From assembly GCF_029714325.1 (NCBI RefSeq), contig NZ_CP121666.1, positions 3,162,001 through 3,226,000 on the forward strand: a stretch of DNA of 64,000 nucleotides, read 5' to 3'. Both the position numbers and the translations under genes were made by a program. The notes below the pieces were generated by a model, which was given only the letters and a program-made list of their open reading frames with translations, did not search any database and was not told the DNA's origin. This document shows positions 11,366-13,335 of this stretch, in pieces (within the stretch, counting starts at the first letter, position 1; every line of letters starts with the position of its first letter). The stretch is from Bradyrhizobium sp. CB1717. Its GTDB lineage: Bacteria; Pseudomonadota; Alphaproteobacteria; Rhizobiales; Xanthobacteraceae.

Positions 11366-11447
11366 GGCTGATGGGACGCTTGCTGAGGGAGGCACGGGTC
11401 GACCTCCAACCAGGTCAGCCTTCCTGACCATCTTTTGGCGTTGCAGT

Positions 11448-11478
11448 TGCGCCCGTTTCTCGTCTAGAAACAGGCGCA
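11448..11478. other. Strong 13-bp inverted repeat upstream of the leuA leader
   Basis: TGCGCCCGTTTCT (11448-11460) pairs with AGAAACAGGCGCA (11466-11478) at 12 of 13 positions around the 5-base loop CGTCT. There is no T run after it on either side. It could be a terminator of whatever precedes it or a dyad operator for leuA. Confidence 0.55.
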
Positions 11479-11496
11479 TCGAGCCTCCCGGCAACC

Positions 11497-11535
11497 AACC
11501 GTCAACGGTTTTGACCGAGGATTTGAGGGCTCAAA
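11497..11535 (+). promoter_or_regulatory. Pair of small palindromes around a TTGACC motif in front of the leu leader
   Basis: AACCGT-CA-ACGGTT (11497-11510) is followed directly by TTGACC (11511-11516) and then TTTGAG-GG-CTCAAA (11522-11535). TTGACC could be a -35 box, but no good -10 stands 17 bases later. The dyads are therefore noted as candidate operators, with the promoter position left open. Confidence 0.35.
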
Positions 11536-11546
11536 AGGGTCTGGCA

Positions 11547-11663
11547 ATGCTGATTCGCGGCCAAATCGATGGGATTTCGAAGGAGGTGGCTCTGGCCGCC
11601 GCCACGATCCCGGCCGCGCTGCCCACCCTCCTTCTTGGCGGGCTTCTTCTTAGCTGCCCCTGA
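11547..11663 (+). CDS. Putative leucine leader peptide of leuA (38 codons)
   Basis: A short ORF begins at ATG 11547, or at an internal CTG 11592 or GTG 11586 near a perfect AAGGAGG. It ends with a leucine-dense run: codons 11628-11651 read CTC CTT CTT GGC GGG CTT CTT CTT, six Leu in eight codons. Five of them are CTT, which is uncommon in such GC-rich DNA. The stop TGA at 11661 lies inside the first stem of the following hairpin set. It stops 109 bases before leuA. This is the layout of a translated attenuator leader whose ribosome stalls when charged tRNA-Leu is scarce. The peptide itself is not expected to have a function. Confidence 0.6.
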   Translation: MLIRGQIDGISKEVALAAATIPAALPTLLLGGLLLSCP

Positions 11664-11749
11664 GGGCCGGCTGGGCGCAACGCGCCTGGGCGCTCAGGGG
11701 CTGGTCGAGATCACCGGACACCTCAGGCGCCCAGAAGACTGACGGCGCC
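11657..11749 (+). promoter_or_regulatory. Candidate leucine attenuator: mutually exclusive hairpins before leuA
   Basis: Stem 1 pairs CCCCTGAG (11657-11664) with CTCAGGGG (11693-11700). Stem 2 would pair CTGGGCGC (11686-11693), or its identical copy at 11671-11678, with GCGCCCAG (11727-11734). The 11686 copy overlaps the 3' arm of stem 1, so both cannot form at once. A third small stem uses GGCGCC at 11726-11731 and 11744-11749. No long T run follows, so the switch might act by Rho-dependent or translational means. The link to leucine comes from the Leu-codon run directly upstream and leuA directly downstream. Confidence 0.5.
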
Positions 11750-11772
11750 AAAAGCTCAAAAGGAAATTTGCA

Positions 11773-13335
<1,563 letters not shown>

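Follow-up and report, generated by a model that had tools for sequence, protein, structure and literature searches.

A leucine-codon leader with a stop-codon hairpin upstream of leuA in Bradyrhizobium and other Alphaproteobacteria: a candidate attenuator without an intrinsic terminator

Introduction

The enterobacterial leu operon attenuator, which we take to be the Rfam family Leu_leader (RF00512), combines Leu codons in a leader ORF with mutually exclusive stems, and it shares both features with the leuA leader of Bradyrhizobium sp. CB1717 described here. The latter differs, however, in having neither a U-tract terminator nor an Rfam match, and in placing its stop codon inside the first stem. 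The closest described system, as far as the accessible parts of the literature go, is instead the LEU element of actinobacteria. According to the available portions of two papers (PMC1262725, and PMC8079986 on Streptomyces leuL1), this element likewise has a leader ORF with a Leu run before leuA and no terminator. In the former paper, again from its accessible parts, a base stem joins the Leu run to the leuA Shine-Dalgarno (SD) sequence, with alternative internal structures; in the present case alternative structures are likewise seen, and a comparable stem is predicted across genera but is weak inside the genus. Two differences should be kept in mind. First, the core of the LEU element is described in the same portions of PMC1262725 as a conserved pseudoknot, whereas in Alphaproteobacteria the core consists of a hairpin whose 5′ arm contains the stop codon. 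Second, the two systems belong to different phyla. The accessible text of Seliverstov et al. 2005 (PMC1262725) favours a binding protein for the LEU element and leaves the mechanism unsettled.

Leader peptides of amino-acid operons are known from the same class as CB1717, namely Sinorhizobium trpL/rnTrpL and the alphaproteobacterial ilv leaders, as described in the available portions of PMC10117765, PMC1273637 and PMC4117421. For a leuA leader of Alphaproteobacteria we found no description in those parts of the literature that were accessible, although the proteobacterial survey of Vitreschak et al. 2004 may mention one. The main texts of two Bradyrhizobium transcript papers, to the extent available, do not mention leuA, and the same holds for the accessible main text of a survey of premature terminators (PMC2965389).

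Results

The leader was analysed in a window of 64,000 nt of Bradyrhizobium sp. CB1717 (contig NZ_CP121666.1, forward strand), and all coordinates are positions within this stretch (Table 1). The gene behind the leader is leuA, with two NCBIfam equivalog models, TIGR00973 and NF002087, both scoring above their cut-offs. Read directly from the sequence, the leader ORF starts with the ATG at 11547 and stops with the TGA at 11661–11663. Its Leu codons are CTC at 11628 and CTT at 11631, 11634, 11643, 11646 and 11649, so that an earlier note on this DNA, which counted six Leu codons in eight (11628–11651), mostly CTT, was exact; five of the six are CTT. That note also called CTT rare, and it truly is, since it makes up 6.6% of the 1560 Leu codons in the usage reference, a set of 30 long, GC3-rich ORFs from the window, and none of the 33 in leuA.

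Table 1. Features of the leuA leader region of CB1717, with positions in the 64,000-nt window.
Feature	Position	Strand	Basis
Promoter-like TTGCAG-17-CTAGAA, possible leuA leader promoter	11441..11469	+	By eye; similar sequence in relatives
5′ UTR dyad AACCGTCAACGGTT, conserved	11497..11510	+	Core CCGTCAAnGG kept in relatives
Leader ORF, 38 aa, MLIRGQIDGISKEVALAAATIPAALPTLLLGGLLLSCP, stop UGA	11547..11663	+	Direct reading; conserved in relatives
First Leu triplet CTC CTT CTT	11628..11636	+	MFE fold pairs it with the SD region 11758–11764; weak in genus relatives
Second Leu run CTT CTT CTT and A	11643..11652	+	CTTA conserved across leaders
Hairpin A, outer stem CCCCUGAG/CUCAGGGG, inner stems GCC/GGC and GGCGC/GCGCC	11657..11700	+	Folding, alignment, covariation
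3′ arm of A, alternative partner 11721–11749 (structure B)	11682..11700	+	Duplex and ensemble modelling
Partner of B, or local hairpin C (GGCGCCCAG 11726–11734 / CTGACGGCGCC 11739–11749)	11721..11749	+	Folding
leuA SD sequence AAAAGGA	11758..11764	+	Sequence; accessibility modelled
leuA, 2-isopropylmalate synthase	11773..13335	+	TIGR00973 695 bits (cut-off 598.7); NF002087 874 bits (cut-off 729)

Upstream of the ORF, where three dyads had been pointed out (11448–11535), the region takes in the promoter-like sequence and one conserved dyad, AACCGTCAACGGTT. A promoter scan gave no consensus hit for the former. For the latter, 74 of 81 sequences of the genus retain the core, as do 18 of the 78 sequences from elsewhere in the family, representing 9 of 36 genera, and none of the 46 loci from the order and class searches has it; the dyad is possibly a regulator site or a hairpin of the 5′ UTR.

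The leader is widely conserved. Near the query, 79 of 80 leuA loci of the Bradyrhizobium type have the leader ORF, 78 by the Leu-run pattern and one (L073) as an in-frame version with a single Leu-to-Phe change. A second leuA copy in a B. glycinis assembly (L084) is without this leader yet has a similar start context, AAAAGGAATTTC. Within the family, 80 upstream stretches were taken of 113 match places, and 79 contain a Leu-rich leader ORF, the remaining one being a truncated contig. In alignment A1, which holds CB1717 and 66 of these stretches (of the other 14, 13 were omitted for thinning, and one, L156, is the truncated contig), 31 of 71 columns are invariant. A covariance model built from the Leu run and the hairpin (R1) matched 115 of 150 genomes of the order, at one match per genome, and 25 of 192 of the class. 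Among the 137 R1-matched genomes, 53 loci were inspected, made up of the best 30 order matches and all 25 class matches, two being shared, and taking in the own genome and three congeners; every one of the 53 lies upstream of a leuA homologue, which is 57–100% identical to the query at 47 loci and ~27–28% at six. The retrained model R2 matched 88 of 289 genomes of the class (E 0.01) and 34 of 199 genomes in a sample of the phylum, all 34 within the class. Its 20 weakest class matches lie before a leuA homologue in 18 cases and elsewhere in two (L264, L270). The CB1717 genome has a single match to the leader model. Homologues that keep neither the Leu codons nor the pairing would, according to the earlier note, have spoken against its idea; what the homologues keep is both, the Leu codons and the stop-codon hairpin.

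Several observations belong beside these counts. At some loci (L182, L187, L188, L193, L194, L198, L273) the leuA homologue behind the leader has just ~27–29% identity to the query, which may mean that different synthases have retained or acquired the same RNA. One genome of the genus (G094) has neither a leuA match at E 1e-150 nor a leader match, and its leucine pathway may use another synthase. Antisense matches were set aside: at E up to 0.05 the model gave 85 matches over 63 sources, and the 22 extra ones are weak second matches, nearly all of them the hairpin read on the opposite strand; with the cut-off lowered to 5e-5, 63 matches remain. A search with all 4227 Rfam families found nothing above the gathering threshold at the leader, either in the CB1717 window or at 18 class loci, and the weak matches fell far below the cut-off.

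The leader stop had been placed inside a first stem, CCCCTGAG (11657–11664) with CTCAGGGG (11693–11700), and it does lie within it. The fold to which this stem belongs, hairpin A, is by its energy alone modestly unusual against shuffles (z −1.9 and −2.2), which is insufficient in itself; the leader and its hairpin stand beyond chance because they are conserved and covary. Thus, in 60 distinct class sequences 97.9% of the cells of hairpin A are standard pairs, and 10 of its 16 pairs have changed on both sides, with double changes in 55 cells. None of 500 shuffles reached the pairing or covariation values, and slid structures drop to 27–55% paired, all of these statistics being favoured by the model-fitted alignment and by the inclusion of some genera more than once. 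L225 and L217 show clear partner changes. Inside the family the arms are nearly invariant (A1), which leaves little room for covariation; the covariation that had been proposed as a check is found class-wide for the stop-codon hairpin and to a small extent inside the family. With one leader per genus (88 leaders), 81 have UGA as the stop triplet in the 5′ arm, three UAG and two UAA, and two have none. The exceptions noticed are L259 and L262, by eye, and L146 and L150, in which TGG replaces the stop within hairpin A and the ORF ends three codons later at TGA. Judged from the aligned sequences, the stop-codon hairpin is the class-wide core of the leader.

The absence of a clear T run had already been remarked. 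Indeed, there is none before leuA in CB1717, and most relatives are alike: from hairpin A to the leuA SD sequence, 189 of 205 leaders have no window of eight bases with five Ts, so the doubt then expressed about a classical output was well placed. Of the 16 T-rich exceptions, at least three (L102, L212, L213; by eye) have a T-rich stretch close behind hairpin A. In the window, a scan found no terminator-like site behind the leader. Two other leaders of the same genome provide a comparison. The ilvB leader (L239, G000:C1:3095459), MRNIITKLLIAVVPRHTAGDG by eye, has a hairpin followed by TTTTTT, and the trpEG leader (L247, G000:C1:2265696) has a leader ORF with Trp-Trp, ending RLWWRTS, and a hairpin with a T-rich tail; by its sequence, the latter is a trpL-type attenuator. 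Unlike both, the leuA leader has no T-rich stretch, and it is therefore of another kind. The ilvB leader also contains, ahead of its hairpin, CTCCTTATC and the Leu pair CTC CTT followed by A.

A second stem had been proposed on the grounds that CTGGGCGC occurs twice, at 11671 and 11686, and has a partner, GCGCCCAG, at 11727; all three positions are exact. The two stems were said to exclude each other. As drawn they share one base (11693); they are mutually exclusive because the folded stem 1 reaches inward to 11682–11700. Structure B includes the proposed stem (11686–11693/11727–11734), and its duplex energy in CB1717 is −29.1 kcal/mol, with no loop cost, against a fold energy of −31.3 for hairpin A. 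When compared with shuffled linkers, the 3′ arm of A is complementary to the linker at z < −2 in 18 of the 37 genera of the family and at none of 39 loci from the order and class searches. Structure B is thus a family addition, and the second stem is supported at that level, with no excess of complementarity outside the family. For hairpin C, self-folding of the linker was no better than in shuffles (mean z −0.05 in the family and −0.24 at other loci). The tests of the linker and of structure B, like the early pairing tests below, used several leaders per genus, and their ‘class’ sets included one family (L177) and one genus (L236) sequence.

Early tests, in which a genus could contribute several leaders, spoke for pairing of the Leu run with the SD sequence. 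They were repeated with one leader per genus, for 51 genera outside the family and 37 within. Leaders scored −18.0 with their own start region against −15.3 when permuted (outside) and −19.6 against −18.4 (family), and Leu runs scored −9.3 against −7.9 (outside) and −10.3 against −9.0 (family) with the SD segment; none of 500 permutations matched any of these four scores, deeper relatedness between genera being ignored. The pairing probability of the Leu run with the SD sequence is 0.35 outside the family, as opposed to 0.16 for synonymously recoded runs (p = 0.0017), and 0.25 against 0.08 inside it (p = 0.11, not significant). In the 42 leaders where pairing is likely, the paired codons are mostly the fifth to seventh before the stop. 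Long stems between the Leu run and the start region were seen in L255, L261, L262, L269, L271 and L272, which come from 30 new loci with L259 and L266 excluded. Within the genus, pairing was no better than permutation (23/200, 77 distinct leaders), and a probability above 0.5 is reached by nine of 81 leaders, or 15 of 81 when the first triplet is counted. With a wider target, recoded runs bind equally well or better (50/50 in the genus, 46/50 in the family and 29/50 in the rest), and the middle linker is almost as good a partner for the Leu run as the SD segment is (−8.6 vs −9.6). As modelled, the complementarity between Leu run and start region appears to hold across genera and is weak inside the genus.

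A ribosome covers about 15 bases on either side of its P site. With such a mask at the fourth codon from the stop, the predicted SD accessibility rises from 0.37 to 0.51 in the family (37 genera; up in 21, down in two) and from 0.30 to 0.43 outside (51 genera; up in 28, down in seven); an equal mask farther upstream had no consistent effect (p 0.63, 0.93). With the mask at the stop codon, accessibility is 0.49 in the family and 0.42 outside. The site is then almost as free as with the stall, so a working switch would require the ribosome to leave promptly. In the free ensemble of CB1717, hairpin A has a probability of 0.99 and the SD accessibility is 0.34 (0.38–0.44 with shorter 5′ context); with a stall at the fourth codon from the stop, A falls to 0, B reaches 0.71 and the accessibility 0.88, compared with 0.86 for a stall at the stop codon. 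As the footprint is an approximate general figure and the energy models are rough, these masks show consistency rather than mechanism.

Of 205 leaders, 204 (84 of 88 by genus) have CTT as the fourth codon before the stop, and 200 have an A after it, giving CTTA, where the free counts are those of the codon's third base and the following A, because the regular expression that located the leaders fixed the C-rich bases and CT. This expression missed four of 209 loci (L084, which is without a leader, L217, L221 and L225). The A begins codons for differing residues. In the distant members L255, L262 and L269, CUUA pairs with UAAG before leuA; where pairing of the Leu run with the SD sequence is likely, however, its bases are paired just 0.24–0.49 on average. 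The near-invariance of CUUA is thus partly explained by pairing, and the simplest guess for the remainder is a slow or well-placed stall codon. In L213, L222 and other distant leaders (8/205) the Leu codon before the conserved CTT is replaced by CGA (Arg), giving CGACTTA, and in L059 the Leu run is tandemly duplicated (TLIIGELLLIIGELLLSCP), which doubles the sensor codons. A programmed frameshift at CUU-A was considered and rejected: in 85 of 86 leaders the +1 frame stays open across the hairpin, but its length is that of shuffled linkers (mean 34.1 vs 35.5 codons under the same cap), and in 24 of 88 it shares the leuA frame.

Discussion

The locus had been called a candidate attenuator. A Leu-sensing leader with alternative structures is borne out by its conservation, its covariation and the kept Leu codons; the output is likely to be access to the leuA ribosome-binding site through pairing of the Leu codons, which the earlier note did not contain. 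On a narrow balance, therefore, we favour a ribosome-sensed attenuator without an intrinsic terminator, most probably acting on the initiation of leuA translation. Stalling, the direction of control and translation as its level are what we infer from sequence and modelling.

Such a leader would work as follows. When leucine is plentiful, ribosomes would complete the 38-codon ORF and depart at the UGA. After their release hairpin A would close, and the Leu codons, which resemble an anti-SD sequence (CUCCUU/CUUCUU), could pair with the leuA ribosome-binding site. When leucyl-tRNA is scarce, a ribosome would stall on the Leu codons, chiefly on the near-invariant CUU, the fourth codon before the stop. 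With both the Leu run and the CCCC of hairpin A covered by this ribosome, the leuA site would be freed. In the family, the freed 3′ arm of A may be captured by the downstream linker, forming structure B.

A Rho-dependent mechanism, which we consider unlikely but worth taking seriously, would use the same leader differently. Rho would load on the C-rich linker after ribosome release at the UGA, and a stalled ribosome together with structure B would block it. This would suit the lack of a U tract in most leaders, the ability of family linkers to pair in alternative ways, and their composition (C 36.5%, G 28.8%, T 10.5%), measured on the linkers alone. Some linkers are, however, AT-rich (L207, L217), and Rho leaves the complementarity between the Leu run and the start region unexplained.

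It is improbable, in our judgement, that a protein or another factor binds the RNA, as proposed for the LEU element, with the peptide being incidental. The 3′ arm and CUUA are near-invariant beyond base pairing, which speaks for a bound factor, yet the Leu run is kept as in-frame codons while the peptide upstream of it varies. Slightly less probable again is a classical transcription attenuator in which hairpin C would be an intrinsic terminator working without a U tract. Although CB1717 allows 1:2, 2:3 and 3:4 pairings to be drawn, ilvB and trpEG of the same genome carry T-rich tails, the linker folds on itself no better than shuffles, and outside the family the complementarity of B does not exceed that of shuffles. 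That the leader ORF is a gene for a small functional protein is hardly credible: its N-terminus, MLIRGQ, is kept in most genus loci, but the peptide outside the Leu run is unconserved between genera, nucleotide changes in the genus are spread fairly evenly over codon positions 1, 2 and 3 (18, 14, 20 and 14, 14, 21 in two length classes), and a search of NCBIfam with the peptide gave no match.

Having set out these alternatives, we return to the ribosome-sensed attenuator acting on leuA translation. A wider proposal, which we would rate a little short of even, is that the leader represents a class-wide alphaproteobacterial RNA family of translational leucine attenuators, in which the sensor codons would double as a decoy anti-SD sequence, the stop would sit in the switching hairpin and CUUA would be a placed stall site. 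It would then be a counterpart of the LEU element, by descent or by convergence.

If true, this would add a sizeable RNA family that is missing from Rfam, and would offer a second, tractable system for the unresolved mechanism of the LEU element. It also suggests that terminator-less amino-acid attenuators escape searches requiring a U tract (compare PMC2965389, in its accessible parts). For the organisms themselves, it would explain how leuA responds to leucine in a large class of bacteria that includes nitrogen-fixing symbionts.
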